The notes beneath the pieces were generated by a model. The model was not told where the DNA came from, made no database searches, and worked only from the letters and a program-made list of their open reading frames with translations. A stretch of DNA of 64,000 nucleotides, taken from NCBI RefSeq assembly GCF_037265215.1, contig NZ_CP147737.1:2450001-2514000 (forward strand), read 5' to 3'. Both the position numbers and the translations under genes were made by a program. The stretch is from Xenorhabdus griffiniae (lineage in GTDB: Bacteria; Pseudomonadota; Gammaproteobacteria; Enterobacterales; Enterobacteriaceae). Shown here piece after piece: positions 11,327 to 60,892 of this stretch. Position 1 is the first letter of the stretch, and every line of letters starts with the position of its first letter.

Positions 11327-11395
11327 AAATCCATGTCCGTCCAGGTCAAATAAATAAACGCAACACTTGTTTGTGATTAAGGATGAGCGTTGTTA

Positions 11396-44661: not shown

Positions 44662-44699
44662 CGTCAACATCTGATACCCCCAATATTATGAAAACTATT

Positions 44700-44804
44700 T
44701 ATACCAATCTAACTTCAAGATGCGTGTGATATCTCCCCGCAAAGCGGGGAGATATCAGGTTTCATATCGTGTTGTAAATTGCAGCTTGAAGTTTAATGCG
44801 TATA
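44700..44804 (+). repeat. MITE-like palindromic intergenic element, copy 1
   Basis: 105-bp element starting TATACCAATCTAACTTCAAG and ending in a degenerate inverse (CTTGAAGTTTAATGCGTATA), with a central perfect hairpin around CTCCCCGCAAAGCGGGGAG. The same core (GTGTGATWTCTCCCCGC, TTTCATATCGTGTTGTAAATTGCA, CTTGAAG) occurs again at 60170-60274, and a diverged version at 59488-59591. Confidence 0.85.
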
Positions 44805-44895
44805 TAATAAAAAATAACATACTAATAAATCATGATTGAAAGGTAATATCTTTAGTGATTTTATTGCAAAGTAAAAAATACAATTTGCATTCACA

Positions 44896-44958: not shown

Positions 44959-46182
44959 TTAATTTAAATTATGTATTAAACAACTCCCTTCCCATATAGT
45001 AAATACTGACATATTGAATAATAGAAATTTTAAAATAAATCCAGATCTATTTTTTTGTAATATACAGATAATCCTAAATAGGAAAAATGTTGTTGGCAAA
45101 ATAAAAACAGATATAAAAATCAACTTATTATAAAATAAAGTTATAACAAGAGGAGCAGTTAGTGCAATTATTGTTATTGACAAAACATTTAAAATGACAG
45201 ATAAAATATTTTTTTCTGATATACAAAAAGACTTAAATAATCCAAACATCGGCATATGCAAAGAAATCATTGTATGTAAAAGTGCTGATGTTTGAAACAT
45301 GAGAATTACATGAAAAAACGCAACAAGTAAAATAATAACTGAGAAACTTAATCCAGTGGAGTTTAATAAAAAAATAATTAAAATTGGAACAATTAAAACA
45401 ATAAATAAATTTATCCTTTGATTTGTATTTTTCAGTCCAAACAAGTAATAAAACAATATCATTCCAATATTGAATTTAAATCCTTTATTTGGATTAACTA
45501 ATTTTAGAGGTTTTATGTTTTTTATTTTTTTAGGAAAAACAAATGGAGAATTTTTAACTTTATAAACAAATATATACACTACTATGAATGAAAGTATTTT
45601 TATGGTGAATGATGATGTAATGGACATTACAAAAGGAATAAATAATGAAAATAAAAAAACAATCAAAAAGGAGTATTTTGAATAGAGGAAAACCAATTGA
45701 AAAAATAAAAAATATATCATTAACAATAAAATTGTTGTTGATCTTTTAAAAAAAACAATATTACCTACATCACCTTCATGACCAAATAACATTGCAGCAA
45801 AAAACGGTATAAAAATGGGAATGTCAATAATGAATAGTAAAGATAAATTTAATGAATTTATAATGTTTTTACTAATTGGTAAAGTATCCAAAAAATTCTG
45901 ATAATTTCCTCCACTAATACCTTTTGTCTGAATGCTGCAAATGATAATGAATGAAATTGATAATAAAAACCATATAAATAGTACATGATAAAAATCATGA
46001 TCGTCAGTTAACACTAAAATAGGAGTGGCTAACAGGCGCATTTGTAATAAAAATGGCATTGCCATAGGAGAAATAATTAAAAGAAAAAATAGCGTGACAC
46101 TCATACGTTTTTTAAGTATTTCAGATGTGACATCCGAATAATATCGGAGACGAAAAAGTAAAAGTTTAATATAAATTCTCAT
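44959..46182 (-). CDS. Multi-span membrane protein, probable ABC permease
   Basis: 407 residues, very rich in Ile, Leu and Phe, with about 10 hydrophobic segments and a basic N-terminus (MRIYIKLLLFRLRYYSDVTSEILKKR). No family motif is recognisable by eye. The only ABC ATPase in the AT-rich cluster without a membrane partner is encoded at 51681-52289, so this is most economically its permease, exporting the cluster product. It has the same AT-rich codon use as the RiPP genes and not that of the adjacent PhzE/PhzD/SDR genes, from which it is separated by a 250-bp gap containing an IS1 remnant. Last gene before a stem-loop at 44896-44938. Confidence 0.6.
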   Translation of the reverse strand: MRIYIKLLLFRLRYYSDVTSEILKKRMSVTLFFLLIISPMAMPFLLQMRLLATPILVLTDDHDFYHVLFIWFLLSISFIIICSIQTKGISGGNYQNFLDTLPISKNIINSLNLSLLFIIDIPIFIPFFAAMLFGHEGDVGNIVFFKRSTTILLLMIYFLFFQLVFLYSKYSFLIVFLFSLFIPFVMSITSSFTIKILSFIVVYIFVYKVKNSPFVFPKKIKNIKPLKLVNPNKGFKFNIGMILFYYLFGLKNTNQRINLFIVLIVPILIIFLLNSTGLSFSVIILLVAFFHVILMFQTSALLHTMISLHMPMFGLFKSFCISEKNILSVILNVLSITIIALTAPLVITLFYNKLIFISVFILPTTFFLFRIICILQKNRSGFILKFLLFNMSVFTIWEGSCLIHNLN

Positions 46183-46269
46183 TTATTTATCCTATATTGG
46201 TGCGATTATTTTTCATACTAAAAATAATTAGATATGATGGTAAATTCCCTGCTTTTTATATATATAAGT

Positions 46270-46344
46270 ATGGCTAAAGTTGATGTGGTTTGTTGTTACT
46301 GTCACAAAGCAGAGGGAGTTAAAGGGCATGGAAAAAGCAGCAAT
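46270..46344 (+). pseudogene. IS1-family InsA fragment
   Basis: ATG at 46270 opens MAKVDVVCCYCHKAEGVKGH followed by GKSSNG, the zinc-finger N-terminus of IS1 InsA (CxxC then GKS motif). The similarity stops after about 25 codons and the remaining InsA, InsB and the IS ends are not seen. It lies on the opposite strand to the surrounding genes, between the PhzE gene and the permease. Confidence 0.75.
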
Positions 46345-46431
46345 GGACATCTGTCAAGATTTATTAAGGTACAACATTACATCAGAAAAAATCGTAAGAT
46401 GATTCTAAATTGCGTCAAATTTTTCTGCCGT

Positions 46432-48365
46432 TTATTTTTTTAATGAATTTTGTATAAGCCACTGATAGATAGGAAATGCATTTTGTGTTAAAAATGACTC
46501 GTTATGAAATTGAATTGAGGCGACATTATTTGACGATAATGCAATAATCTCATTAGAAACAAACCGTTCTAAATGGATAGTTTTGTTATACGTCGTGCTA
46601 TACCAAAAAGGCTCATCATGCATGGCAGAAAAGCTATTATAGAAAGCAACACAATGTTTTTTTCCTGAATCGATACCTGATATTGACTGCCCTGACGACT
46701 TTTGGACAAACGTATAATTGGGATGCCAAGCTCAGCGCAAATGAGTTGATGTCCCAGACACGTGCCAATTAGCGGATGTTGGGAACGCAATTGTTGCGCA
46801 ATAACTTGTCGAACAATCCGAATTCTTTCGAGTTCTAAGTTTGCAGGGTCACCCGGTCCCGGGCCGATGAACACAATGTTGTTACTGGTCTGTAGCAATT
46901 TGCACTGACTGTCATACCAGGGAACAATTATGATAGAGCAACCTGCTCTTCTTAACTGATAGCCGATCATTTCGGTGAAAGTATCTTCCATATCAATCAG
47001 GAAGATCTTGCTGTAAGGCAGGATCATCCTGTTTTGTTTCATATTTCCCAGCCAGAATGTGGATACTTTCTCATTGCGTTGTGCCAAAAGTTGGTTTGCT
47101 CTGCTATACAACTTTGCGGATATTTCCGTTTTTGGCGAGCCTGCTGATATTATCGCAACATCAAAGAAAGAATGCATCAATCCCTGCAATTTAGCGCGTG
47201 TTTCGCAGGCTTCATTATGTGGTACGGAGTCCCTGACGATGGTCGAACCAGCCATCAAGCGGAAATGCCCCTGTGAGCTGATATCCGCAGTACGGATCAC
47301 GATTGCAGAATCTAGATAACGTTTTTTGCCGTTATTACCAATAATAGCAATAACACCGCTATAATAGCCGCGACCTCGCTGTTCATGGCGTGCAATGACT
47401 TTACAGGCATTTTCAATTGGACTACCCGTGACTGCTGGAGCAAACAGCGATTGCTGGACAATTTCCTTCAGCCCCCTGTCAGACTCACCATTAATATAGT
47501 ATTCTGTATGGGCGATATGGGACATCATCTTGAGTTTTGGACCGGATACTTGGATATCTCGTTGACAAATTCTGCTCATCATTTTGAGTTCTTCATCAAC
47601 TACCATGAATAACTCGTCGCGCTCTTTTTTATTCTGTAAAAAATTACACAACGCACGCTCTAAATGCTGAGATTTAGGATATCTGAATGTACCACTGATG
47701 GGGTTCATCGAAACAGATGGTTGGTTAACCTTAATATGTTGTTCGGGTGTACTGCCAATAAAATAGCGGTTACCAGTATAGAATATCCATGTCCAGTAAG
47801 CTCCGTATTCTGACTGTACCAATCGTTTAAATAAACTCAGTGCGTGTCTGATACTAAAACCATCAAGATCAGCTTCTAGACTGCGTGAAATAACGAAATT
47901 ACTGCCTTCCCCTGCGCTGATTTCTTGATTTATTACGGTGTCAACAATTTCACCGTACGCTTGATCATCGAGATCGAAACAAATATTCTGCGGCTGAATA
48001 TCGTAACTGACGATAGCTGCCATAAACTGGTTAACAGGGTAATATGCCAGTTTATCAATGTGCATAACAATCACTTGTTCATAGTCGTCAATGCAGGCAT
48101 AGCTCTTTTCCTTTAATTGATTAAAAGGTAGCAACACCAACTGCGATATCTGATGGGTGTTAGCATCTATCGTCGAGGTATCAAGGGGAAAATCAGAGAA
48201 GGAAGGAAATTGCTCAATATTGCCCTCAAGGAATAACACCGAATCAGCCATATCAACTTGAGGACGATAAATACAAGCAAAGGGCCGATCGAGATTAGCG
48301 ATATAAGCCGGGAGTTCAGCGATACTACAGGCGGCTTGTGCTGTTTTATTGGTAGATAACATCAT
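46432..48365 (-). CDS. phzE: ADIC synthase PhzE-like, with a frame change near the 3' end
   Basis: Converts chorismate and glutamine to 2-amino-2-desoxyisochorismate (ADIC). The N-terminal chorismate-binding domain has MNPISGTFRYP, ELFMVVDEELKMMSRIC, AHTEYYINGE, FAPAVTGSPIENACKVIARHE and RGYYSGVIAIIG, which follow PhzE closely. The C-terminal glutamine amidotransferase domain has GPGPGDP and the nucleophile motif GTCLGHQ. The first frame ends at 46569 with residues that do not belong to the family (after QYQVSIQEK). From the A-run at 46657-46663 the -1 frame continues with KHCVAFYNSFSAMHDEP and ends with SIQFHNES, the expected His-x-Glu, stopping at 46432. The joined protein would be about 644 residues, the usual PhzE length. 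Either a 1-base loss, a sequencing error, or -1 slippage at A AAA AAC (46656-46662). Confidence 0.88.
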
Positions 48366-48386
48366 TATTTCCTTTAATACAGGATG

Positions 48387-49016
48387 TTATTTCAAAATGT
48401 TGATGAGCTGTTGAGTGGATAACACTACGGAACACGTTTCTGCTGCCAGCTCTAGCGCCAAGCGATGTTTTTCAGCAGAAAAATCAGCAACAGCATCGGC
48501 TATGAAAAAAGTTTCGATATCATTCGAGTAAGCTTCTTGTGCTGTGCACAAGCAGCCGATGTGAGCATAAACACCGCATATGACGAGCTGATCACGTTTC
48601 AGGCTGTGCAACGTAGACAACAGTGAGGAATTGAAAAACGCGCTGTAACGCCACTTGGTTAAAACATGTTCACCTTCTTGGGGGGCTAGTTGTGAGATAA
48701 TCTGTTTGTGTTCGTGGCTGGCCCGCATACCCGGTCCCCATAGACTTTGCAGCAATCCTCGCTGCTGGGGAGTCATATCTCCCGGCTGAGCAGAATAAAA
48801 CACGGGGATTTGCAGATGCCGGGCAACTTTCAGCAAATGATGCACATTATCAATAACCTGTGCTACAGGTGACGTATTCTCCGTAAAAAAATTGAGAAAA
48901 TAATGCTGCATATCATGGATGAGCAATGCTATACGTGTGTAATCAGCCTGCCAGTTTGCAATAGATATCGGTAATAAGTGTTCTATCGGTAATGGATAGG
49001 GAGATATTTTTTTCAT
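48387..49016 (-). CDS. phzD: Isochorismatase-family hydrolase, PhzD-like
   Basis: Hydrolyses the enol-pyruvyl ether of ADIC to trans-2,3-dihydro-3-hydroxyanthranilate and pyruvate. 209 residues, very close to PhzD by motif: YPLPIEHLLP, the catalytic Asp in LLIHDMQHYFL, AQPGDMTPQQRGLLQSLWGP followed by GMRAS, LTKWRYSAFF with the catalytic Lys, GVYAHIGCLCTAQEAYSNDI with the catalytic Cys, and ADAVADFS. No aryl carrier domain is attached, unlike EntB. It sits 20 bp downstream of the SDR and 21 bp upstream of PhzE in the same operon. Confidence 0.92.
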   Translation of the reverse strand: MKKISPYPLPIEHLLPISIANWQADYTRIALLIHDMQHYFLNFFTENTSPVAQVIDNVHHLLKVARHLQIPVFYSAQPGDMTPQQRGLLQSLWGPGMRASHEHKQIISQLAPQEGEHVLTKWRYSAFFNSSLLSTLHSLKRDQLVICGVYAHIGCLCTAQEAYSNDIETFFIADAVADFSAEKHRLALELAAETCSVVLSTQQLINILK

Positions 49017-49035
49017 TCTGCTTTCCTTTTAAAAA

Positions 49036-49821
49036 TTAACAACTTCCTAGAGCCGCGCCGCCATCAACCAGTAATGTTGAAAGTGTGGTTTGGCCTGACT
49101 CTTCGCACAAGTAGAAACAGACTGCCGAGGCGATCTCATTCGCCGTTGCGATCTTGTTGAGCGGAATACCAATACGAAATTGTTGCAGATTGCCATTGAG
49201 TGTATTTTTCTGATCACATTCGTTCTGCCACATACTCCGCAGCATAGGTGTGTCGGTAGACCCAGGGGCAACAACATTACAGCGGATACCATAAGGTGCA
49301 ACTTCTAACCCCAGTGCATAAGTAAATGTTTGAGCTGCGGCTTTTGATGCGCAGTATGCCGCCATCATTGTTCGAGGTACACGCGCTGCGTTAGATGCGA
49401 TGGTCACAATACTGCCTTTTCGCTGTTTCATCATCATATTGGCCGCATAGCGACTAACGTTAAACACACCGGTCGCATTGACTGCAAAAGTTTTTTCCCA
49501 ATCCTGAAAGGATGTCTCGGTAACAAAAGAATGACATAATACGCCTGCGCTATTGACCAAATAACCCACTGCTCCCAACTGATGACTCAGTGTGGCAAAT
49601 ACTTTTTCAACACATTGATCATTAGCTACATCAACGGGAAAACCCATAATTGGCTGCGTATATTCGCCTTTTAGCTTGGCTACCAGAAATTCCAGCGCTT
49701 GTGACTTATTATCCAATAGCGCTAATGAAATGCCTTCTTTTGCCAGTGAACGGGCTATAGCCTCACCAATCCCCCCACAAGCACCAGTAATGACGGCAAT
49801 ATAATGTTTATCAAAGGTCAT
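49036..49821 (-). CDS. Short-chain dehydrogenase, EntA/DhbA-like, likely forms 3-hydroxyanthranilate
   Basis: 261-residue SDR with the TGxxxGIG cofactor motif (TGACGGIGEAIA), the NSAG motif (LVNSAGVL), and the YxxxK active site (AAYCASKAAA). The order and length resemble 2,3-dihydro-2,3-dihydroxybenzoate dehydrogenase (EntA). Next to PhzE and PhzD, its expected substrate is dihydro-3-hydroxyanthranilate, which it would aromatise to 3-hydroxyanthranilate; this is inference from context. None of the other phenazine genes (phzA/B/F/G) is nearby, so a phenazine is unlikely. Base composition is higher in GC than in the genes upstream and downstream. Confidence 0.85.
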   Translation of the reverse strand: MTFDKHYIAVITGACGGIGEAIARSLAKEGISLALLDNKSQALEFLVAKLKGEYTQPIMGFPVDVANDQCVEKVFATLSHQLGAVGYLVNSAGVLCHSFVTETSFQDWEKTFAVNATGVFNVSRYAANMMMKQRKGSIVTIASNAARVPRTMMAAYCASKAAAQTFTYALGLEVAPYGIRCNVVAPGSTDTPMLRSMWQNECDQKNTLNGNLQQFRIGIPLNKIATANEIASAVCFYLCEESGQTTLSTLLVDGGAALGSC

Positions 49822-49886
49822 TTTGTTGTAGCTCCTTACAGTAGTGTAATGAAATAAATAATATAATTGATTAATAACCTTATTTA

Positions 49887-50543
49887 TTAAGAAAATCCAA
49901 GATTCATAATAAATTTACTTATCTCGATATTACAGCATTCCCAGCTGTAACTTCGTTTAAATATGTGATTATCATTTTCTAATGTATACAATTTACGTTT
50001 AACACTTTCATCGGTGAAAGATTTTGAATGTTCCCAAGGGGTCACCTCATCTTCTTTTGAATGAATTATTAACATGTCTGTATCTATATTTAAAAACAAC
50101 TTATTTGTTATAATTTCATTCTCTATTAAAGATTTATTTAAAACATTATAGTCATAAACCGGATTAATAAGAATAGTTGGAATAGATGAATTAGTATTAT
50201 GCAAAAACTTCAGTATAGATAAACTACCTAAACTACCAGAGCAAAGTACAATTTTATTGAAGCCAACTTCATGTAATTCTTTAATCACACCATTAAGATA
50301 ATCATCTTCATTAATCTCCTTATTAACTCCAAAGTTATTTACATAGCCAAAAGAGCTAGGAGTATTGATTATAACACCTTGATAGATTTTTGATTTATCT
50401 TTGGTAAAGAGACGACAAATACATTCTTGAAACATATTTGGCTGCATACCACTCATTGCCAACTTATGGGTTCCGGGGTAATAAATAACAATGATTTTTT
50501 CTTTTTTGTAATTTAGATCTAAAACTTCCTTTTTTACAGATAA
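49887..50543 (-). CDS. Alpha/beta-hydrolase domain, continuation of the upstream propeller gene after an in-frame TGA
   Basis: In the same frame as the gene ending at 50544, about 218 codons remain open after the TGA, reading LSVKKEVLDLNYKKEKIIVI then YYPGTHKLAMSGMQPN. An oxyanion-type YYPGTH segment, a nucleophile elbow (CSGSLGS), an Asp in KEDEVTP and a His in ENDNHIF give a complete catalytic triad. No ATG, GTG or TTG lies between the TGA and the fold start; the first possible start, a TTG at 50462, would remove the first strand and oxyanion loop. The domain therefore seems designed to be the C-terminal half of one S9-like peptidase, which could act as a leader peptidase for the precursor at 58167-58292. 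Alternatives: a non-standard start, a nonsense mutation or recoding. Confidence 0.6.
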   Translation of the reverse strand, partial: LSVKKEVLDLNYKKEKIIVIYYPGTHKLAMSGMQPNMFQECICRLFTKDKSKIYQGVIINTPSSFGYVNNFGVNKEINEDDYLNGVIKELHEVGFNKIVLCSGSLGSLSILKFLHNTNSSIPTILINPVYDYNVLNKSLIENEIITNKLFLNIDTDMLIIHSKEDEVTPWEHSKSFTDESVKRKLYTLENDNHIFKRSYSWECCNIEISKFIMNLGFS

Positions 50544-51680
50544 TCAATCTAGTCTAGGTATAAATGGATATTTTGTTTTGTCTTGATATAATATTTTTAC
50601 ATCCATACTAGTACGATTGTACTTCAATATTGATAGTTTGTCTTCCAATACTCCATAAAAAACACAATCACCATTTTTTATAATAGACAATTGATATCCT
50701 ACATCTTCAAAAATCATTCTTGTGGTTAATTTATCACCATAGCAAGTTACTTCAAAAATTTTTCTGACTGGTTTATCTGTGGTATAATCAATTGCAATGT
50801 AATATATTGAAGAGTAACAACTAGATGAAACAAAGTTAATAACTACATGCTGTGGTAGAGATATAGGGGTTATACGTTTATTTACAGAGTTATAATGGCA
50901 TAAATAAACATTATAATTCCTCTCACAGACAAATAAAATATCGTTATTTTTCCATCTTGATAAATTAATATTTTTTACACTTAAATGAGATACTGCCTTA
51001 ACACTTACACTTCTAATTGAATTAAAGTCATGTTTATTTAAAACAATAAGATGATTATTAGCTTTACCTATTAAATCTTTTTGTTGTACATATACATATA
51101 TATATGATTCAGTAGGAACTATACTAAAATCGGTTCTAGAATTACACTTTATCCTCCCTATTTTATATCTGAAACTTTCTTCTCCATCATTCACAATTAA
51201 AGTGAAATTATTTTTATCATTCCTAGAGAGTATATAGTTTGTTTTTTCATTTAAAAAAAATGATTTAACATTATTTTTAAATACATAATATTCACTAAAA
51301 GAATTTGGCAGGGTTTTAAACAATGCTTCCCCAGATAATATCCACAATGTATTTTTGTAATCAAATTGCATTGACTTTATGTTTTTTAAATTAATTAGTC
51401 CATATATTTTGTTATTTTCGAAAGAAAAAACATTAACGTTATTACTTGAACTTAAAGCATAATTCATCTCTGAAAAAGAAATTATATTTTTATAAATAGT
51501 TTTTTCTAAATGCAAAAAAATAATTTCCTCTTCAACAATTTTATACCAATAGTGGCATGCATTATTACCATCACTAGCTATCCAAGACACAATTACATTT
51601 TCTTTATTATCATTCTGCAATGAGGTGATAAATGGTGTTTCAAAAATGCTTTGTTTTACAACAAATGAAAGACAATTCAT
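50544..51680 (-). CDS. Beta-propeller-like protein, N-terminal half of a probable S9-type peptidase
   Basis: 378 residues, mostly alternating short beta strands and loops with repeated aromatic/hydrophobic patterns (for example TLWILSGEALFK, DILFVCERNYNVYLCHYN), no signal peptide and no transmembrane segment. On its own it matches no motif I know, but it is followed in frame by an alpha/beta-hydrolase domain, giving the propeller-plus-hydrolase order of prolyl-oligopeptidase-like S9 enzymes at a normal combined length of about 597. It ends ...YPFIPRLD then TGA. It begins immediately after the ABC ATPase stop with no spacer, so the two are translationally linked. S9 assignment is inferred. Confidence 0.6.
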   Translation of the reverse strand: MNCLSFVVKQSIFETPFITSLQNDNKENVIVSWIASDGNNACHYWYKIVEEEIIFLHLEKTIYKNIISFSEMNYALSSSNNVNVFSFENNKIYGLINLKNIKSMQFDYKNTLWILSGEALFKTLPNSFSEYYVFKNNVKSFFLNEKTNYILSRNDKNNFTLIVNDGEESFRYKIGRIKCNSRTDFSIVPTESYIYVYVQQKDLIGKANNHLIVLNKHDFNSIRSVSVKAVSHLSVKNINLSRWKNNDILFVCERNYNVYLCHYNSVNKRITPISLPQHVVINFVSSSCYSSIYYIAIDYTTDKPVRKIFEVTCYGDKLTTRMIFEDVGYQLSIIKNGDCVFYGVLEDKLSILKYNRTSMDVKILYQDKTKYPFIPRLD

Positions 51681-52289
51681 TTAATTACCCTTAAATATAT
51701 TTATGTTAATAACATGAGGATTTAAATATTTTTTAACTTCAAAATCATGGCATGTCATTATAACTAATCCAGACAAGCTGAATTTTTTTATATTTTCGAT
51801 AAAATATAAAAATGAATCATTATCAAGTCCATTAGTTGGCTCATCAAAGATAAGTATTTTTACATTTGCTATCATGGCAGAAACTAACATGAACTTTTTT
51901 GCAGTTCCAAGAGACATATCACGAAAATGAGTATGCATATAATTATGCAAATTAAAACCATCGATTAAATTAAGTTGTTTTTCTATTTCTATCTTTCTTA
52001 TAGAACAAATAAGATCTAAAAATTCTTTCCCAGTAATGAATTCATATATACAAGGACTATCGGGAGCATAAGCTATAAGTTTTTTTCTACAACAGCCCTC
52101 CCCATTTAAAAATATATCTCCATAATCAGGTTTAATAGCACCAGCTATAATTCCTAGCAAAGTCGATTTACCCGAGCCATTTTCTCCTTCTAGACAATAA
52201 ATACCATCATTAGGAAAAGTAAAGCAAGCATTCTTAATTATAAATCTTCCTGAATATTTCTTACATACACTGGATAATTTAATCATCAT
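51681..52289 (-). CDS. ABC transporter ATP-binding protein
   Basis: 202-residue stand-alone ATPase with Walker A GENGSGKST, a signature-like MSLGTAKKFM, Walker B ILIFDEPTNGLD and the H-loop MTCHD. Small size and CcmA-like order fit an ABC-2-type exporter. It likely pairs with the membrane protein at 44959-46182, the only candidate permease in the cluster. It begins a second block of the operon after a 261-bp gap that holds no gene I can recognise, so an internal promoter upstream is possible. Confidence 0.85.
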   Translation of the reverse strand: MMIKLSSVCKKYSGRFIIKNACFTFPNDGIYCLEGENGSGKSTLLGIIAGAIKPDYGDIFLNGEGCCRKKLIAYAPDSPCIYEFITGKEFLDLICSIRKIEIEKQLNLIDGFNLHNYMHTHFRDMSLGTAKKFMLVSAMIANVKILIFDEPTNGLDNDSFLYFIENIKKFSLSGLVIMTCHDFEVKKYLNPHVININIFKGN

Positions 52290-52550
52290 GATACCTATTT
52301 TTATCTAATTTAAAGTATTAATATTGGTTTTTTATTTTTAAAGCCGGTTATCTTTTTAGTAAAAAAAATAATAAATCCTTACTTCACACAACAGATTAAA
52401 TTGTATAATCTCAATATGCCTATTTAATTTATTTTTAATTTAATAAAGCTACCGCCTTTGAGTTATTTTCATGTCAGTAACCCATTTATCTTATTAAACT
52501 TTTCATTAATTATCACCATAATATATATGGCTAAAAATCAGAACACTTCA
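52290..52550. other. AT-rich gap inside the cluster
   Basis: 261 bp between the ABC ATPase and the aminotransferase. No open frame with a ribosome binding site, no clear terminator hairpin. It may hold an internal promoter for the 52289-44959 half. Confidence 0.4.
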
Positions 52551-53744
52551 TTAATACTTTAATGCTGAAATCACTTTTTTTATCGCTCTGAAAATATCTA
52601 GTGTATCATCATGATCCCCTAATAAAGCTCGGTGATGTATCCAAACTCCTCTCTTTGAGATATATTCAGTAACTGGACAAAAGTCCATAAAATTTTGCTT
52701 ATTCCGTGTTGTACAAGGAGGTAGCCAATAATTATCAACATGGTAGATTGCTTTATAAGCACGGAATGCTGGAATTCCCTCAGCGAATAAGCAAGCTACA
52801 AAGTAATCACGAACAATATATGCAACCCTTTGATTAAGTGTAAACATAAACATATAATGAGGATGAGATGTTACGATTTTAGTGTCGTATTCTTGAAGAG
52901 TAACTTCTGGTAATATTTTTAACAGTTCCTTTAAACTTTCCGCGTTACGCTCTCGAATATGAGTTTGTTCTTTGAGTCTTTTTAGTTGAGTACGCAAAAC
53001 CGCAGCAGAGAACTCACTTAGTCTAGCATTTGTTGCGATTATAGTATGTTGATATTCTTTGTCTTTTGCATGACGTCCACAATTACTATAAAGGAAAACA
53101 AGATCACGTAATTCCTTAGTGGGGCACAAAACGACACCACCTTCCCCTGCTGTCATTAGCTTAAAATTATGGAAACTAAAACATGCCAGTGTTCCCCAAT
53201 CACCAATCTTTTTCCCTTTTTCTCCACAGGCACCATGCGCATGAGCAGCATCTTGAACAATAAAAATGCCATGTTTATTTGCTATTTTTATTATATTGTT
53301 CATATCACATAAATGACCAGCCATATGAACCGGTATGATTGCTTTTGTTCGGGGAGTTATATTTTTTTCAATTAGATTAGGATCTATGCAATAAGTACTC
53401 TTTAAAACATCTATAGCTATTGGTATTGCACCAACTCGTTGAACTGCCATACTAGTAGAAATAAATGTAAAAGCTGGAACTATAACCTCATCTCCAGGTT
53501 TTATACCAGAAGCTAATAATGCCAATTCTAATGCCACAGTTCCACTAGTGACAGTGACAGCATAACCATTATGGTATTGTCCGAATTCTTGTTCAAAAAA
53601 ATTATTTTCTTCCCCTTGATTTCTCCACCAATGCCCTTGGTGCAAGCTTCTCAATAATGCTTTCTCTTCGCTTTCATCATAATAAGGCCATTTAGGAAAA
53701 TTAGCGAGACGAATAGCACTACCACCATTGATTGCTAATTTCAT
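52551..53744 (-). CDS. DegT/DnrJ/EryC1-family PLP-dependent aminotransferase (AHBA-synthase-like)
   Basis: 397-residue fold-type I PLP enzyme. Visible features: VTSGTVALELALLASGIKPG, DEVIVPAFTF, the PLP-contacting VQDAAHAHGA, and the Schiff-base Lys195 in FSFHNFKLMTAGEGG. Start ATG at 53744 (MKLAINGGSAIRL) is preferred since AGGTGA lies just upstream; a GTG three codons earlier is less likely. Related enzymes aminate sugars, inososes or form 3-amino-5-hydroxybenzoate. There are no sugar or aminoshikimate genes in the window, so the substrate is unknown; it could act on a carbonyl produced on the peptide or on the aryl unit. It is 93 bp downstream of the MNIO gene. Confidence 0.85.
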   Translation of the reverse strand: MKLAINGGSAIRLANFPKWPYYDESEEKALLRSLHQGHWWRNQGEENNFFEQEFGQYHNGYAVTVTSGTVALELALLASGIKPGDEVIVPAFTFISTSMAVQRVGAIPIAIDVLKSTYCIDPNLIEKNITPRTKAIIPVHMAGHLCDMNNIIKIANKHGIFIVQDAAHAHGACGEKGKKIGDWGTLACFSFHNFKLMTAGEGGVVLCPTKELRDLVFLYSNCGRHAKDKEYQHTIIATNARLSEFSAAVLRTQLKRLKEQTHIRERNAESLKELLKILPEVTLQEYDTKIVTSHPHYMFMFTLNQRVAYIVRDYFVACLFAEGIPAFRAYKAIYHVDNYWLPPCTTRNKQNFMDFCPVTEYISKRGVWIHHRALLGDHDDTLDIFRAIKKVISALKY

Positions 53745-53837
53745 ATCAATCACCTATTTAATTTTAATAAATTATAAAACTATACATGTGAGATTTTATT
53801 TTTACGCCAATTCTAGATACAATATAAAAAATCACAC

Positions 53838-54695
53838 TCATTTATATCCAAACTTACATGGACAGGTGAGACGACAATATGCAGGAGAAGTAAACAATAT
53901 TTCTCTAGCACGGTGTAGACTCTCTAAAATATCATTAATGTCGAAGTTGGAATCTCTTTCCAAGACAATACCATGAGGTACAATTCTAGAGCATAGATAT
54001 TCAAGTAACTCCCATACTGGAGTTCCTATTGTATGCCCATGACTATCTATTAATAACTCATCATGGACATATCCTCCAGCTATATGAACTTCTATTATTG
54101 AATTCAAATTTATTTTTTCCAAAAAATCATAAGGATCGTAATTATGATTTTTAGAATTAATATAAAGATTGTTTACATCAAGCAACAATCCGCATCTACT
54201 TTCCTTAATAATATCATTTATAAATTTGCACTCACTATATTCATTGTCAGGAAAATCAAAATAATACGAAATGTTTTCTATTAAAAATGGTATATTAACA
54301 GATGAACAGATTTCTTTTATTTTTAATATTATTCTTTTTTTATTATATAAATTCCTCCTAATAGGCATCAATTGATCTATATCAAAATCATTTATTTTTG
54401 TATATGCCAAGTGATCACTAAACCATAATGGAGATAATTTATTTATGATATTTACTGTTTCTTTTAAATACCTTAAATCCATATCTTCATGAGCACCTAT
54501 AGATGATTTCAATCCATGTAGAACACAATGCTTTTTGGTTAAAATTTCTTGCAAAGATAAAGGAATATCTTTAGATAAAAAAAACAATTCAGTGATAATT
54601 TCTATAAAATCAAAAGAATTAATATTATTTAATAACTCATTACCTATTTCAGTGCGATAGTTAATCCCGATACCATATGGAAGATTTTCTAACAT
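53838..54695 (-). CDS. MNIO-family (DUF692) iron-dependent oxidative enzyme
   Basis: 285 residues from the ATG at 54695 (MLENLPYGIGINY), preceded by AGGGGA; a 14-codon longer reading lacks a better signal. DUF692 hallmarks in order: GIGINYRTEI, VLHGLKSSIGA, FSDHLAY, LIENISYYF, LLLDVNNLYINSKNH, EVHIAGGY, DSHGHTIGTPVWELL, and VLERDSNF. The family uses two or three irons on a TIM barrel (MbnB, TglH, ChrH, BufB) and commonly oxidises or rearranges cysteine residues in RiPP precursors. It follows its partner gene by about 20 bp when that gene is read in the corrected frame. Odd feature: a C-terminal tail with three cysteines (YCRLTCPCKFGYK) outside the barrel core. Substrate is most likely the peptide at 58167-58292. 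Confidence 0.92.
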   Translation of the reverse strand: MLENLPYGIGINYRTEIGNELLNNINSFDFIEIITELFFLSKDIPLSLQEILTKKHCVLHGLKSSIGAHEDMDLRYLKETVNIINKLSPLWFSDHLAYTKINDFDIDQLMPIRRNLYNKKRIILKIKEICSSVNIPFLIENISYYFDFPDNEYSECKFINDIIKESRCGLLLDVNNLYINSKNHNYDPYDFLEKINLNSIIEVHIAGGYVHDELLIDSHGHTIGTPVWELLEYLCSRIVPHGIVLERDSNFDINDILESLHRAREILFTSPAYCRLTCPCKFGYK

Positions 54696-54715
54696 ATTAA
54701 TTCCCCTTTCTATTT

Positions 54716-55590
54716 TTAATGCACACTTGAAAACCATCTAATCACACCAAGTGATTCTAACTGATTAAATATTAAATTCACTTTCAAATAATCATCATCT
54801 GATAACATTGATGGAAATATTTCATCAACAATTTCTTTATAAGATGAGTGGGAATTACATTTTTTATTAACTTTATTAATAGTGAACTTACCTTTATCGT
54901 CCTGACTTTCTGATCATGCCAAGAAATATAAGTTAAAATATTACTCTCCTCATTTTTTAAAATTTCTTTACACGATAATTCTATGTCTATATTATCATTT
55001 TCTCTCAGTTTTGCTATCAACGTTACTATATCAAAGTCATAAGTATGATAAACTGGATTTGACATTAACATAGGATAACCTAAATCACTTTTAGAACCTG
55101 ATATTAATAATGGACTATATCTTTTTTCCTTAGCGTTATTTAATACTTCAAGAATACTAGTTTCATAGCGAATAACTTCAAAAATGAAAAATTCATTATC
55201 GGAATAAAATAATAAATCTTTATTTTCTATATATTTAATAAAATCCAGCGCATATAAATAAGCATCATTCCATCTATGATTAGATAATGTATTACGAAAG
55301 TCAATCCACTTTATATTCAATGTTCTTTCCCCCATTATTTTTGCTGACAAAGGAAAAAACAAAAGAACTCTCTTATATAATCTTTTATCTAAAATTTCAC
55401 TTAATATTCTAATGCTTTTTTTCTGAATCATGACTACATTATGAATAATATCTTTAATTTCATCAGGTATGTTGAAGTTAGGAATGTCAAATTTTTGGGT
55501 ATATATATAGTACTCCAATGATCGTGTATTAGTAACCAAATAACCGATCAAATATTGAATCATTGCTTCCTTTTCTTTTATTTTCATCAT
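54716..55590 (-). CDS. MNIO partner protein (MbnC/TglI/DUF2063-like), frame change near the 3' end
   Basis: Probable recognition partner that brings the precursor to the MNIO enzyme. The first frame gives 268 residues to 54784, with the partner-type segment SNPVYHTYDFDIVTLIAKLR followed by SNILTYISWHDQKVRTIKVS. After LIKLIK its last residues (YFHQCYQMMII) look foreign. From the A-run at 54860-54865 the -1 frame stays open and reads KCNSHSSYKEIVDEIFPSML, then NLIFNQLESLGVIRWF, a winged-helix-like end, stopping at 54716, just 20 bp before the MNIO start. The joined protein would be about 291 residues. A AAA AAT at 54859-54865 is a canonical slippery heptamer. The start overlaps the cupin stop (ATGATGA). 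Family assignment is by motif resemblance and context. Confidence 0.72.
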
Positions 55591-56387
55591 GATTTCCTTC
55601 TATATAGTTTATCATTACCCTCTTTAATTTTAATTAGAATATCACCCGATAGAACAGACTCCAACAGAGATGAATATTTTTCAGATTTATTTACATCAAG
55701 CCTAATCATTTTTTTATAAGATTTTAATTTAATTGATGGAGTGCCTAGGATAAATATTTTCTCCAATATATCAAATTGAAGGTCTGAATTTAATTTATCA
55801 GAAATCAATAAACATGAAGTCAAATTACGCAATACTACCATTGAGTAATCAATATTATCATAGGGATCATTTTTTCCTAACCATACGGTGTCGCCATTTT
55901 TACCTGCTCTCATGTCAGAGTCACAGAAAATATGTAGAGTAACGCTATATTCAGATAAGTCGGGATCACCCAATGTATGGATACATGGTGGTATTAAATA
56001 ACCAGTTTTTCCTTCACTTGCAATTAGCTCTTTATTAACTGTTATTTCTTTATTTACTTTTTCAAAAATTTTTATTTTTATTTTATTGTACATCACTCCA
56101 CTTACGCTCCACGTATTATGTTGGTGTGGTTGGTTTTCACTTTTAGGATTCCACAAAAAAATATTCATCCTCCATTTATTTTTATAATCAATATAAAGTG
56201 GTTTATTTTCATTGTGGTTTATAATATTTCTAGTGTTTTCAATAAGCTCATTAACACAATCATTCAAAAAAAATTCATTTACAATTGCTATAGATACAAT
56301 ACTTCTGATATTATTTATCATATCAGGTACACTTTGTGCTGATGTAATTTCGTGGTTTATTTTTTTTATAAAATCAATAAGCTTCAT
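55587..56387 (-). CDS. Cysteine-dioxygenase-like cupin protein
   Basis: 266 residues from the ATG at 56387 (MKLIDFIKKINHEI), with a G-rich ribosome site a few bases upstream. A helical N-terminus is followed by a cupin core with WNPKSENQPHQHNTWSVSGV: H88 and H90 form the HxH of the metal site and H137 in PPCIHTLG supplies the third ligand, with a later LHIF strand (SLHIY-like in the family). This is the 3-His facial triad pattern of thiol dioxygenases, which oxidise cysteine or related thiols. In this cluster it may act on cysteine, a peptidyl thiol or a released thiol fragment. It overlaps the next gene by 4 bp. Function beyond fold is inferred. Confidence 0.65.
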   Translation of the reverse strand: MKLIDFIKKINHEITSAQSVPDMINNIRSIVSIAIVNEFFLNDCVNELIENTRNIINHNENKPLYIDYKNKWRMNIFLWNPKSENQPHQHNTWSVSGVMYNKIKIKIFEKVNKEITVNKELIASEGKTGYLIPPCIHTLGDPDLSEYSVTLHIFCDSDMRAGKNGDTVWLGKNDPYDNIDYSMVVLRNLTSCLLISDKLNSDLQFDILEKIFILGTPSIKLKSYKKMIRLDVNKSEKYSSLLESVLSGDILIKIKEGNDKLYRRKS

Positions 56388-56478
56388 AATACCCCCGTAA
56401 AAACACGTTTGCATAACTAAAATAGTTATATTATTAAACGTTATTAATTTTAATAATGGTTAATTGATAAATAAATAT

Positions 56479-58065
56479 TTAACAATCATAAGAAAATTCA
56501 GTTAGAGTTTGGCCTCCTAAAATATTACGTTGTAATTTTCCTGCGCTGTTTCGCGGTAAAGAATCCATAAACTCAATTCGTTCTATATGCTTATGTGGAA
56601 AATCAATCCATCTATTTTTTACTGAATTGAAAATTCTTTCTTCTAGGGAAGGAGATATGATTACTTTATCTTTACATACAACACATGCTTTTAATATAAT
56701 TACATTATTTTCATTTGTTTCCCCAATGACTGCACATTCTAAAACCTCATTATTTTTTAATATCACATTTTCTATCTCATAAGGAGATATCCATTCACCA
56801 CAGCCTTTTTTGATCATATCATCTGCTCGACCAAAATATGTAAGGTAACCATTATAAATGCTAAACATGTCATTACTAACATGCCAACCGTTATTAAAAG
56901 ATTGTTCACTTCTCTCTACATCATTTAAATATTCACAAGCAACACTTGGACCTCGAATACAAAGTCTACCAATTCCTTTTTCATTAACTTCATTTCCCTT
57001 CTCATCAATTATTTTAACCTGAAAACCACTTAAACATTTACCTGCTGTCTGTGGTTTTGTATCTTCTTGAGTATTAGATATAAAAATGTGGCCTACCTCT
57101 GTAGAACCAAAACCATCTAAAAGTGGACTTCCTATTTCTTTATTCCACTTTTCTAAAAGAATAGGTGATAAAACCTCTCCAGCAGAAGTAGATATACGCA
57201 AAGACTTTAGCTTTTTTTTCCTATTGTCACTAAGTAATTCAGATATCATTCTTGGTGTTCCAAGAAATATCGTTGGATTTAAACTTTCAGTTAACTCTAT
57301 GATTTTTACATATGTTGTTTTTTCTTTAAAAAGAATACATGATGCACCATATATGAAACTAAATAGTAATGCTCCACCCAATGCATAACCAAAGGTTAGT
57401 TTAGGAACTGCTAGCACTTTATCAGTAGAATTCATATGCAAAACATTTTCAGAAAAAGCATAAGCACAGTGTAAAATATCTCGATGACGTCTAGGTATTA
57501 CTTTAGTTCTTCCCGTCGTACCCGAACTAAGTAAAGCATATGCATAGTTATCAGCACTTGCATGGCTGATCAAAAAATCATTCGATTGGTTTTCTATTGC
57601 TATTTCTAAATAAGATGGGTTTAAATGGAAGTCTCCAGTGAAAATAGTTCTAATTCCATTGATTATTTCTGGAGATAGTTTTCTTTTCTTTTCTATTTCA
57701 TGGTCAATGATTAATACTTCCGCATTTATTTTTTGTATTATATCATTTAGTTCTACCAATTCATTAATGGGATTACTTAATATAGCCATAGCATCACATG
57801 CTATAATTGCAAAGAAGCTTATTACGAATGCAGGTGTATCAGAAATAGATAATATTACTCTAGTTTTACTCTTTATACCGATTGATTTAAAATAGTTTGA
57901 TGTTTTTGAAATCTTTTCTGATAGTTCTTGGTAAGTAAAATTTTTTCCATTATATGATATAGCTACATTACCCCCCCTGCCTTCTCTAATATTACGGAAA
58001 ACAAGAAAGTCAGTTAAGTTCAAATAATCATTTTTCAATGACTCTTCCAAATAGATATTTTTCAT
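56479..58065 (-). CDS. Aryl-acid AMP/CoA ligase (benzoate-CoA-ligase-like)
   Basis: 528-residue ANL-superfamily enzyme. P-loop LLSSGTTGRTKVIPRRH (core at 180-188), motif DGFGSTEVGH, and the C-terminal lysine in PRNSAGKLQR (K510) are intact. Overall pattern (LAVPKLTFGYALGGALLF) is closest to benzoate-CoA ligases. No carrier protein gene is seen in the cluster, so the activated acid would go to CoA or directly to an amine or thiol. The obvious substrate is 3-hydroxyanthranilate from the PhzE/PhzD/SDR genes downstream; this is inference. Start ATG preceded by AGGGTG. First gene after the precursor and its stem-loop. Confidence 0.85.
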   Translation of the reverse strand: MKNIYLEESLKNDYLNLTDFLVFRNIREGRGGNVAISYNGKNFTYQELSEKISKTSNYFKSIGIKSKTRVILSISDTPAFVISFFAIIACDAMAILSNPINELVELNDIIQKINAEVLIIDHEIEKKRKLSPEIINGIRTIFTGDFHLNPSYLEIAIENQSNDFLISHASADNYAYALLSSGTTGRTKVIPRRHRDILHCAYAFSENVLHMNSTDKVLAVPKLTFGYALGGALLFSFIYGASCILFKEKTTYVKIIELTESLNPTIFLGTPRMISELLSDNRKKKLKSLRISTSAGEVLSPILLEKWNKEIGSPLLDGFGSTEVGHIFISNTQEDTKPQTAGKCLSGFQVKIIDEKGNEVNEKGIGRLCIRGPSVACEYLNDVERSEQSFNNGWHVSNDMFSIYNGYLTYFGRADDMIKKGCGEWISPYEIENVILKNNEVLECAVIGETNENNVIILKACVVCKDKVIISPSLEERIFNSVKNRWIDFPHKHIERIEFMDSLPRNSAGKLQRNILGGQTLTEFSYDC

Positions 58066-58123
58066 AAAGGCAAAACACCCTATTAGTTATTAAATTTAAT
58101 TATTAATCACGTTAATATATAAA

Positions 58124-58157
58124 TAACAGAGGGCAACATAATTATTGCCCTCTGTTA
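58124..58157 (-). terminator. Perfect stem-loop between precursor and biosynthetic genes
   Basis: TAACAGAGGGCAA and TTGCCCTCTGTTA form a perfect 13-bp stem with an 8-nt loop, starting 10 bp after the precursor stop. It probably acts as a partial terminator and 3' stabiliser, giving excess precursor mRNA over the enzyme genes, as is common in RiPP operons. No long T-run follows, so read-through is likely. Confidence 0.8.
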
Positions 58158-58166
58158 ATAATGATA

Positions 58167-58292
58167 TTAAGAACAGCTTAAGCAAGCCAATCCTGCTGCT
58201 TCAATTTGTTCTAATACTTCAATTAATTCTATAGATTCAATCTCTCTGATAGCTTGACTTTGTACATTTTGAATATCAGATTTTCTGTCCAT
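58167..58292 (-). CDS. 41-residue RiPP-like precursor peptide ending in ACLSCS
   Basis: ATG at 58292 with AGAGG 7-8 nt upstream. The peptide begins MDRKSDIQNVQSQ, continues with an acidic amphipathic stretch (REIESIELIEVLEQIEAAG) and ends LACLSCS, then TAA. Charged helical leader plus a short C-terminal core with two cysteines and two serines is typical of a RiPP precursor. It is the first gene of an operon containing an MNIO (DUF692) enzyme and its partner, which classically modify cysteines near the C-terminus. It is set off from the next gene by a stem-loop, and its promoter region holds operator-like repeats. Not recognised as a known precursor family. Confidence 0.82.
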   Translation of the reverse strand: MDRKSDIQNVQSQAIREIESIELIEVLEQIEAAGLACLSCS

Positions 58293-58392
58293 ATGTACCT
58301 CTTAAAATCGAATTATTCAATATTGGTGATTTATATAGATGAAATAACTCTAATATAGAAATTCATCTTTACCCAACTTAAAACACTGATGA

Positions 58393-58431
58393 CTTGCTGT
58401 CAAAGTAATCAGACAACTTGTTGTCAATGTG
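58393..58431 (-). promoter_or_regulatory. Paired direct repeats upstream of the precursor gene
   Basis: ACTTGCTGTCAAAGT (58393-58407) and ACTTGTTGTCAATGT (58417-58431) match at 13 of 15 positions with a 24-bp period. Read on the minus strand each contains TTGACA, so the proximal copy (TGTCAA at 58399-58404) could be a -35 box with a weak -10 downstream. The palindrome GACAACTTGTTGTC (58413-58426) overlaps the distal copy. Together they look like an operator for the precursor promoter, about 100-140 bp before its ATG. Confidence 0.5.
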
Positions 58432-59455: not shown

Positions 59456-59487
59456 ATTTTCTCCCGTTTACTTATCTGATGAGGGTA

Positions 59488-59591
59488 TATACCAATCGCC
59501 TTTCCAGATGCGCCTTATATCTCCCCGCGTAGCGGGAGATATAAACAATCACATTGATTTGCCAGCGGCAACTTGAAGTTAGATTGGTATA
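59488..59591 (-). repeat. MITE-like palindromic intergenic element, diverged copy 2
   Basis: 104 bp bounded by TATACCAATCGCCTTTCCAG and CTTGAAGTTAGATTGGTATA, with central CTCCCCGCGTAGCGGGAG. Ends match copies 1 and 3 but the interior differs (AAACAATCACATTGATTTGCC). It fills the space between the lipoprotein promoter and the 3' end of the SMR gene, ending 2 bp before the SMR stop codon. Confidence 0.8.
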
Positions 59592-59593
59592 GC

Positions 59594-59926
59594 TCAATGC
59601 CCTGTGCTTTTAGAAAACAAATTAATGACTAAAACACCGACAATAATAAGAAGAATACCGATAATTGCCGGTAAATCCAATTTTTGCTGGTACAAAAATA
59701 TACCCGCAATAGAGACTAAAACTATACCAAGGCAAGACCATACAGCATAAGCAATCCCCAAAGGCATCACCTTGACAACTTGTGATAACGCCCAAAATGA
59801 TAAGCAATATCCCATCACCACAACAACAGACGGCACTAAGCGAGTGAAACCATCGGCTGTTTTTAACATTGTTGTCGCTATCACTTCAGACAAAATTGCG
59901 ATAAACAAATAACCCCATACATTCAT
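59594..59926 (-). CDS. emrE: SMR-family multidrug efflux protein, EmrE-like
   Basis: 110-residue four-helix inner-membrane transporter from the ATG at 59926 (MNVWGYLFIAILSEVIATT); the conserved membrane-embedded Glu is in AILSEV. GFTRLVPSVVVV, GIAYAVWSCLGIVLVS, and QKLDLPAIIGILLI then GVLVINLFSKSTGH follow EmrE closely, including the C-terminal STPH-like end. An upstream TTG (59938) is a less likely start. Proton-coupled export of quaternary cations is the family function. Stands alone between two palindromic elements. Confidence 0.92.
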   Translation of the reverse strand: MNVWGYLFIAILSEVIATTMLKTADGFTRLVPSVVVVMGYCLSFWALSQVVKVMPLGIAYAVWSCLGIVLVSIAGIFLYQQKLDLPAIIGILLIIVGVLVINLFSKSTGH

Positions 59927-60169
59927 CTTGCTCACCAAGCCAACGTTATAAGACAGACCAAATTCAAAAAAAACCGCTTAATCTACCATAACTTAAAACA
60001 GAATACCTTAACGAAATGAGGTGTTTTTTCTTTATAAAAAAGAATGATGATGAAAAAATCAAATGTAAATTTGACAAGGAATTATTTAATAAAATAAAAA
60101 TGATTATTTCATTAATCTATCCACATGCATCAATATTATTTCCACCTATAAAAACCACTTCAAATTATT

Positions 60170-60274
60170 TATACCCATCTCACTTCAAGACGCGTGTGAT
60201 TTCTCCCCGCGAAGCGGGGAGAAATCGGGTTTCATATCGTGTTGTAAATTGCAACTTGAAGTTGGATTGGTATA
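60170..60274 (+). repeat. MITE-like palindromic intergenic element, copy 3
   Basis: 105 bp from TATACCCATCTCACTTCAAG to CTTGAAGTTGGATTGGTATA with central CTCCCCGCGAAGCGGGGAG. Interior nearly identical to copy 1 (44700-44804). It is read through by a spurious 121-codon frame starting at 60016, which is not a gene. Confidence 0.85.
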
Positions 60275-60892
60275 TCACAAAAATGACTAAAAGAAATTAT
60301 TCATTTCAATATAGAAAAGATCAGGTAATTATTTCTTTGCGATACAAACACTATAACAGCAACTTAAAAACCAACAGGTAACCATAAAGAAATAAAACCA
60401 GATCATAAGTAATTAAAAAATATAACTCTAACGGATAAAAATATTATAGACTTCACTACAAATGACTATCACTATTGAAACCTGAAAAACTGCGACTATA
60501 AAATCATGAACATGGAATAATGGATAAAAATAATGACTATTTTAAAAAATAAAAACAAACTACGCGAAACAGGATAAATGTCGAAGATATACACTAAAAT
60601 AGACAAAAAATAAAATTTAAACCCTTGGACAAACAATATTAGCTATTTTAAATGAGGGAGAATGCTGAAAGATTGCAAGATTAGTCGTAGTGATACCATG
60701 ATAGCTTATGCCAACACCTATTAAATAAAATAATAACCTGATGTTAAAAACCATAAAACATCAGATATAACGTAATAAATTATGTTAATGCCAAAACATA
60801 AATAAATTAAGGTTAGGCAAACACTGAAATCTACTCATTTGTATCATGAATGACAAATAACTTGTAAACGGAATGCATTCGTATAATTGACT
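60275..60892. other. AT-rich intergenic region before the NRPS
   Basis: 618 bp of very AT-rich DNA without a credible gene. Near its right end is a perfect palindrome GAATGCATTC (60871-60880) followed by TATAAT (60882-60887), immediately before the NRPS ATG; this could be promoter or operator, but the TATAAT is too close to the start unless the transcript is leaderless. Confidence 0.45.

Follow-up and report, generated by a model that had tools for sequence, protein, structure and literature searches.

A mobile Xenorhabdus gene cluster that probably couples an MNIO peptide system to aminobenzoate supply and activation

Introduction

The window analysed here, a stretch of 64,000 nucleotides from Xenorhabdus griffiniae (contig NZ_CP147737.1, positions 2,450,001 to 2,514,000; host genome of 4.77 Mb in a single contig), carries on its minus strand, from 58,292 to 44,959, a cluster of 12 genes in which a short peptide gene and an MNIO (DUF692) enzyme stand together with predicted enzymes of aminobenzoate metabolism. 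This arrangement raises the question whether the genes form one pathway or two that share a location. Based on gene content, conservation and distribution, it is very probable that one mobile cluster couples the MNIO peptide system to the supply and activation of an aminobenzoate. With regard to the product, we lean slightly towards a covalent aryl-peptide, i.e. towards a hybrid of a ribosomally synthesized and post-translationally modified peptide (RiPP) and an aryl acid.

Results

Gene content of the cluster

All genes listed in the initial annotation were recovered by family scans and open reading frames with the same order, strand and coordinates, and the order is kept in three other genomes. 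Precursor, aryl ligase, cupin, orphan partner, MNIO and DegT enzyme are followed by ABC transporter ATPase, propeller-hydrolase, SDR, PhzD, PhzE and a membrane protein (minus strand throughout; AHBA, 3-amino-5-hydroxybenzoate; ADIC, 2-amino-2-deoxyisochorismate; PLP, pyridoxal phosphate):

58389 to 58428, minus: two upstream direct repeats, about TTGACAACA..TCAT, a possible operator, found by eye in four copies
58167 to 58292, minus: 41-aa precursor peptide with an acidic leader and GLACLSCS at the C-terminus, conserved in three other copies
58124 to 58157, minus: terminator-like hairpin in the gap between precursor and enzyme genes, 15 pairs followed by a T-rich tail
56479 to 58065, minus: aryl-CoA/AMP ligase of the benzoate-CoA-ligase subfamily (PF00501; TIGR02262; structures)
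55587 to 56414, minus: cupin, putatively of a fold like that of thiol dioxygenases, with a helical domain at the C-terminus
54784 to 55590, minus: orphan protein at the place of an MNIO partner (by position; no family), frame lost near the C-terminus
53838 to 54695, minus: MNIO (DUF692) enzyme (PF05114), likely ATG at 54695, longest frame from 54737
52551 to 53753, minus: DegT-family PLP enzyme of AHBA-synthase type (PF01041; AHBA synthase 1b9h)
51681 to 52289, minus: ABC transporter ATPase (PF00005, 68.6 bits)
49887 to 51680, minus: propeller and alpha/beta-hydrolase protein, S9-peptidase-like by layout, one in-frame stop
49036 to 49821, minus: SDR, 2,3-dihydro-2,3-dihydroxybenzoate-dehydrogenase-like (DhbX type; TIGR04316; EntA-type structures)
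48387 to 49016, minus: PhzD/IcmX-type isochorismatase (PF00857; PhzD structures best)
46432 to 48365, minus: PhzE/AdsX-type ADIC synthase (PhzE structure 3r74), frame lost near residue 570
44959 to 46182, minus: membrane protein, likely the permease partnering the ABC ATPase (DUF6136), at the same place in four copies

The trio of PhzE, PhzD and SDR shows a G+C content of 0.41-0.50 compared to 0.24-0.36 in the remaining cluster genes, and it is nested in the cluster, where the AT-rich gene for the membrane protein comes after it. No tRNA was found in the window or in seven related loci, no Rfam match was obtained across the window, and promoter-like sites were not above shuffled sequences (61 found compared to 84.9 expected).

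Enzymes for an aryl acid

PhzE matched the PhzE structure 3r74 with 394 bits, while the SDR reached 299.8 bits with the 2,3-dihydro-2,3-dihydroxybenzoate dehydrogenase model TIGR04316, just short of the cut-off of 300. A predicted ADIC synthase (broken in the window copy), a predicted isochorismatase and an SDR resembling a dehydrogenase of dihydro-3-hydroxyanthranilate (DHHA) stand together, and in this the trio corresponds to the cassette that tilivalline clusters have for 3-hydroxyanthranilate. As given in the accessible text of PMC5875774, AdsX, IcmX/PhzD and DhbX are assigned to 3-hydroxyanthranilate supply for tilivalline, and deletion of each of them impaired tilivalline in one Klebsiella oxytoca strain. 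Trios beside domains of nonribosomal peptide synthetase (NRPS) type in two other Xenorhabdus genomes (G003 and G013), which presumably carry tilivalline clusters, are 53-54, 62 and 69-71% identical to the trio of the window. An assignment of the trio to a phenazine set was rejected, since PhzE and PhzD of G014 and G026 showed only 37-46% identity and no SDR match occurred within 19.9 kb. The synonymous divergence (dS) between X. poinarii and the other copies was 0.88-1.18 for SDR and PhzD and 0.29-0.48 for PhzE, as if the SDR/PhzD pair had been exchanged in X. poinarii.

The DegT enzyme (PF01041, 330.6 bits) gave 334 bits with AHBA synthase 1b9h and 186 bits with the next family. It is closest to RifK and keeps, in the aligned stretch, a lysine which we take to be the catalytic PLP lysine. 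The initial annotation had recognized a DegT-type aminotransferase, and this assignment can now be narrowed to the AHBA-synthase type, which had gone unseen. The first NCBIfam matches had pointed to a sugar aminotransferase, a candidate overturned by the structure match to AHBA synthase. A Streptomyces homologue of the enzyme lies among shikimate-type genes beside a polyketide synthase (PKS). The aryl ligase scored 318.5 bits with TIGR02262, under the cut-off of 375, and its best structures were an anthranilate-CoA ligase (234.6 bits) and a benzoate-CoA ligase (221.8 bits).

Precursor, MNIO and neighbouring tailoring genes

The precursor has the 41 residues initially described, but it does not end in cysteine: its terminus is GLACLSCS, with serine as the last residue and cysteines at positions 37 and 40. 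In three other copies it is 76-80% identical, and the final eight residues are the same in all four. A short frame with a conserved cysteine core beside an MNIO gene, kept in four copies, is the arrangement of an MNIO RiPP, and the 41-aa peptide is the presumed MNIO substrate. The hairpin behind it likewise persists in all four copies; one pair shows a compensatory change, and one copy has two outer pairs broken. Being terminator-like, it would shift transcription towards the precursor relative to the enzymes. Three copies share about 200 bp of conserved sequence in front of the precursor.

The MNIO belongs to the DUF692 family (PF05114, 234.9 bits, cut-off 25), and its metal-site columns His, Asp, Glu and Asn, which we take to include the iron-binding residues, are invariant across ten sequences. 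Among the named MNIO models the best scores were obtained with BufB (200 bits, cut-off 310) and HvfB (187 bits, cut-off 360), and MbnB gave 51 bits at a cut-off of 325, which places the enzyme outside the methanobactin type. In the tree it groups, with support, with proteins from Acinetobacter and Photorhabdus and lies, according to tree and neighbourhood check, outside the clade of ten MNIOs having DUF2063 neighbours. One divergent tree row, L052 (genome G305), has no DUF2063 neighbour, a long branch and an unsure placement; its MNIO is followed by a 245-aa protein without Pfam match and a glycosyltransferase-like frame, and this may be a further MNIO system whose partner is atypical.

At the limits used, the protein at the partner place was without a family match in Pfam, NCBIfam and PHROGs, and it is labelled by its position; in PHROGs, four cluster proteins were without match. 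For the propeller-hydrolase all Pfam matches were weak and under cut-off. Its propeller (50544-51680) and hydrolase (49887-50462) parts are joined in a single open frame of about 597 aa in each of the three other copies. The breaks of the window copy in this gene, in PhzE and in the partner had been missed initially. The membrane protein matched DUF6136 with 27.1 bits (cut-off 25), and its X. poinarii relative had no Pfam match.

Relatives of both cupin and MNIO were found in Acinetobacter oleivorans and Photorhabdus heterorhabditis. Since both report the same longest contig in each species (693,791 and 58,452 bases, respectively), they probably lie together there. Among 149 family genomes the cupin profile matched a single one, that of the window, and it matched none of 12 genomes from the genus of G166, which was assigned to Photorhabdus by its LuxE score; P. 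heterorhabditis and A. oleivorans themselves lie outside the genomes searched. Five of 369 class genomes matched, i.e. the window's own and four weak ones (E 1e-7 to 3e-5), and the plasmid search gave two weak Streptomyces matches. At E 1e-60 the MNIO profile matched 16 of the 369 class genomes, with 497 bits for the window's own and 206-240 bits for the 15 others. A plasmid search with the Acinetobacter MNIO gave 348 records, the best among the matches listed having about 33-37% identity, and no related locus was found in viral contigs.

Distribution, mobility and selection

The genus sample comprised 30 genomes including the window's own (G000). A MNIO match of some kind occurred in eight of them and a strong one in four, namely G000, X. 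doucetiae (G008), X. poinarii G6 (G021) and X. thuongxuanensis (G027). The same four carry the AHBA-type DegT enzyme at E 1e-60 and a PhzE of more than 80% identity; PhzE identity was 53-55% in nine further genomes, 37-40% in six and far weaker in the other 11. The MNIO and PhzE/PhzD/SDR blocks, whose consistent separation had been set beforehand as the observation that would speak against a joint cluster, were found together in all four genomes with an MNIO of this type. A same-species draft (G009) is without MNIO and DegT.

Thirteen query pieces (precursor, ten other genes and both halves of the propeller-hydrolase) are collinear in the three other genomes, the main pieces being 64-93% identical. 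In all 78 gene-by-pair comparisons the ratio of nonsynonymous to synonymous substitution rates (dN/dS; in-frame parts, own script) was 0.09-0.44, and the cluster genes are under purifying selection. Collinearity and selection both exceed what a chance assembly of genes would show. The four copies lie in four different chromosomal neighbourhoods (blastn, flanks of 5.7-8.8 kb). Flank sharing was limited to the roughly 200 bp upstream of the precursor in three copies plus two short repeats, 147 and 53 bp long, which a flank of X. poinarii has in common with a flank of X. thuongxuanensis. The gene near the X. thuongxuanensis cluster, which we take to be guaA, is 1.5 kb away from it there, about 307 kb in the window's genome, 43 kb in X. 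doucetiae and 765 kb in X. poinarii. Because the four copies occupy four different neighbourhoods, the cluster, including the trio, travels as a unit. The proposal of a hybrid cluster with a 3-hydroxyanthranilate-type pathway is supported. Palindromic repeat elements flank the island of the window (44692-44813 and 59487-60283; one 122-bp pair 88% identical), and these are either common repeats resembling miniature inverted-repeat transposable elements or insertion traces.

Decay of the window copy

For a comparison of lesions, the other copies were read against 11 X. poinarii proteins. Three of the 11 compared proteins are broken in the window copy: the partner frame is lost near the C-terminus, the propeller-hydrolase is split by one in-frame stop, and the PhzE frame is lost around residue 570, where an A7 run is located (46663-46657), with the end of the amidotransferase domain in another frame. 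The three other PhzE copies stay open across this site. At the frame change lies an A AAA AAC sequence (46656-46663), which we take to be a slippery heptamer; the change could originate from recoding, which is possible, from mutation or from an assembly error. In X. doucetiae the ligase is found in two separated pieces and the ATPase in two frames; additional frames inside the ligase and a 345-aa open frame between MNIO and DegT are probably insertion sequences. X. thuongxuanensis has the ligase in two frames, and the stop in its permease, located in the last few residues, was excluded from the lesion count. Only the X. poinarii copy, whose frames are without internal stops, looks intact.

The window copy is probably decaying and, because three genes are broken, the strain may be without product. 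It is rather likely that its cluster is a non-functional remnant. While the three broken proteins favour this, two of the three lesions are situated at A-runs or close to them and may stem from assembly errors, and the remaining reading frames are still conserved.

Neighbouring and other loci

Positions 13657-44495 of the window hold a yersiniabactin/photoxenobactin-like siderophore cluster with an AraC-type regulator, a TonB receptor, an ABC exporter, NRPS/PKS proteins of 2032 and 3918 aa, a thiazolinyl imide reductase and a fused aryl-AMP ligase/salicylate synthase. As far as the accessible text of PMC9177418 describes it, the pxb family resembles this cluster. Positions 2-13186 (G+C content 0.54-0.61) hold a ShlB/FhaC-type two-partner secretion transporter (11396-13186, minus strand), and the open frame after it, 3775 aa or more in length, continues past the edge of the window.

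The genome of the window has a further MNIO gene, which is distant from the first (L002, G000:C1:1306283-1306876), and two other Xenorhabdus show two MNIO matches per locus (G003:C112 and G018:C44). On a plasmid of Streptomyces sp. NBC_01527 (L074), an MNIO gene lies beside two FAD/NAD(P)-binding proteins, a 2OG-Fe(II) oxygenase and an ABC transporter.

Discussion

A pathway can be proposed in which PhzE, PhzD and SDR would convert chorismate to 3-hydroxyanthranilate or to a ring intermediate on this route. The AHBA-synthase-type enzyme would aminate or aromatize the ring intermediate, or act on the peptide, and the ligase would activate the aryl acid. In the precursor, the MNIO with its orphan partner would oxidize one or both of the core residues Cys37 and Cys40, with a heterocycle as the probable outcome, the cupin would oxidize a remaining or N-terminal thiol, and the propeller-hydrolase would cleave off the leader. 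The aryl group would then be attached to the peptide released from its leader, perhaps by thioester exchange at an N-terminal cysteine, which is proposed because no acyltransferase was recognized, and ATPase and membrane protein would export the product. As judged from these genes, the product would most likely be a leader-cleaved, MNIO-oxidized cysteine peptide (core about GLACLSCS) with an aminohydroxybenzoyl group. The cysteine chemistry is the least firm part: thiooxazole chemistry, for which an absorbance at about 305 nm is given in the accessible part of PMC12668002, was rejected as a default in view of the BufB and HvfB scores and the position outside the DUF2063-partner clade, and because of the MNIO tree a thiooxazole appears doubtful. 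A further-reaching variant is unlikely, namely that the AHBA-type enzyme intercepts the ring ketone on the ADIC/DHHA route to form an unusual amino-aryl acid (e.g. a diaminobenzoate instead of plain 3-hydroxyanthranilate), that this aminobenzoate is joined to the MNIO-oxidized peptide and that a peptide-acting thiol dioxygenase tailors the cysteines, which would constitute a new natural product class.

Several observations weigh against a coupled pathway. No enzyme for aryl-peptide coupling was recognized in the cluster, and the genes that normally accompany AHBA synthase (aminoDHQ synthase and further aminoshikimate genes) are absent from the cluster proteins, to which the search was confined. 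The orphan protein is a putative partner, for which the profile comparison with DUF2063 partners gave E 0.14 and a probability of 0.4% and the structure model was poor (pLDDT 41). Three of the four copies contain broken genes, and the four copies share ancestry, so that the co-occurrence, strong as this evidence is, does not represent four independent events. According to the accessible text of PMC5875774, phzD mutants of another K. oxytoca strain still produced tilivalline, and a trio of like type in X. indica lies inside a predicted chrysobactin cluster, which means that the cassette wanders. Product, transcript and function are read from the genes, and metal binding and antimetabolite action of the product, suggested initially, would be proposals of the same kind.

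In an alternative explanation, a 3-hydroxyanthranilate cassette that makes a separate product entered an MNIO peptide cluster a single time, before this cluster spread, leaving two co-located pathways. The deviating G+C content of the trio, the shared ancestry of the copies and the like trios serving other clusters in the genus fit such an insertion. The trio is, however, nested, shows purifying selection and reached four places together with the other genes; the four genomes have no further strong match for an ADIC synthase, and ligase and DegT enzyme of the AT-rich part are themselves of aminobenzoate type, which makes two separate pathways quite improbable.

With the pathways coupled, the peptide could still serve as a scaffold as in 3-thiaglutamate biosynthesis, with aryl acid and modified cysteine built on its C-terminus, released as a very small molecule and the rest recycled. 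This is improbable: the core end is short and conserved, a hydrolase is encoded and the MNIO has a partner-like neighbour, but the cluster proteins scanned gave no Pfam match to a ligase of the PEARL (peptide aminoacyl-tRNA ligase; lanthipeptide-dehydratase-like) type, and the last residue is serine instead of cysteine or alanine. A copper peptide resembling captophorins or bufferins, with 5-thiooxazoles formed by the MNIO and additional metal ligands from the aryl part, is unlikely. BufB and HvfB are the best of the named models, yet their scores lie far under the cut-offs, the MNIO belongs to another clade, and neither a DUF2063 partner nor an EGKCG or DUF2282 precursor is present. Altogether, the coupling of a modified peptide with an aminobenzoate is the interpretation we prefer.

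Such a coupling would tie the very numerous and mostly unexplored MNIO clusters to shikimate-derived aminobenzoates and would place an AHBA-type enzyme outside ansamycin loci. The cluster changes its chromosomal site as a whole in symbionts that kill insects and are known for their bioactive metabolites, and it points to an MNIO clade (Xenorhabdus, Acinetobacter, Photorhabdus) without described member in the searches made. The 12 genes of the intact-looking X. poinarii copy make the question testable.

Comparison with known systems

The claim that the cluster has no recognized counterpart is consistent with the accessible literature, which omits most subscription papers and describes no such cluster; in the accessible main text of the Xenorhabdus/Photorhabdus cluster survey PMC9177418, the terms 'DUF692' and 'hydroxyanthranil' do not occur. 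The tilivalline cassette (adsX, icmX/phzD, dhbX) has the same three enzyme types side by side, whereas tilivalline clusters are described as NRPS clusters, with no MNIO, precursor, cupin or DegT named in the accessible text of PMC5875774. With captophorins and bufferins, whose MNIO models are the closest named ones, the cluster shares an MNIO presumably acting on peptide cysteines, but it differs in MNIO clade, in a partner without DUF2063 match, in a short non-repeat precursor and in the added aryl genes. Methanobactin clusters likewise combine an MNIO with a short cysteine-containing precursor, and some of them contain an aminotransferase gene; here, MbnB is under cut-off, partner and aminotransferase are of other types and aryl genes are present. 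The 3-thiaglutamate type is set apart by its PEARL ligase. The AHBA pathway of ansamycins shares the DegT enzyme, whereas no further AHBA-pathway-type gene and no PKS occur in the cluster. Since the pairing of an MNIO peptide with an aminobenzoate was not found in the described relatives checked, we regard the cluster as a new variant among MNIO RiPP clusters.

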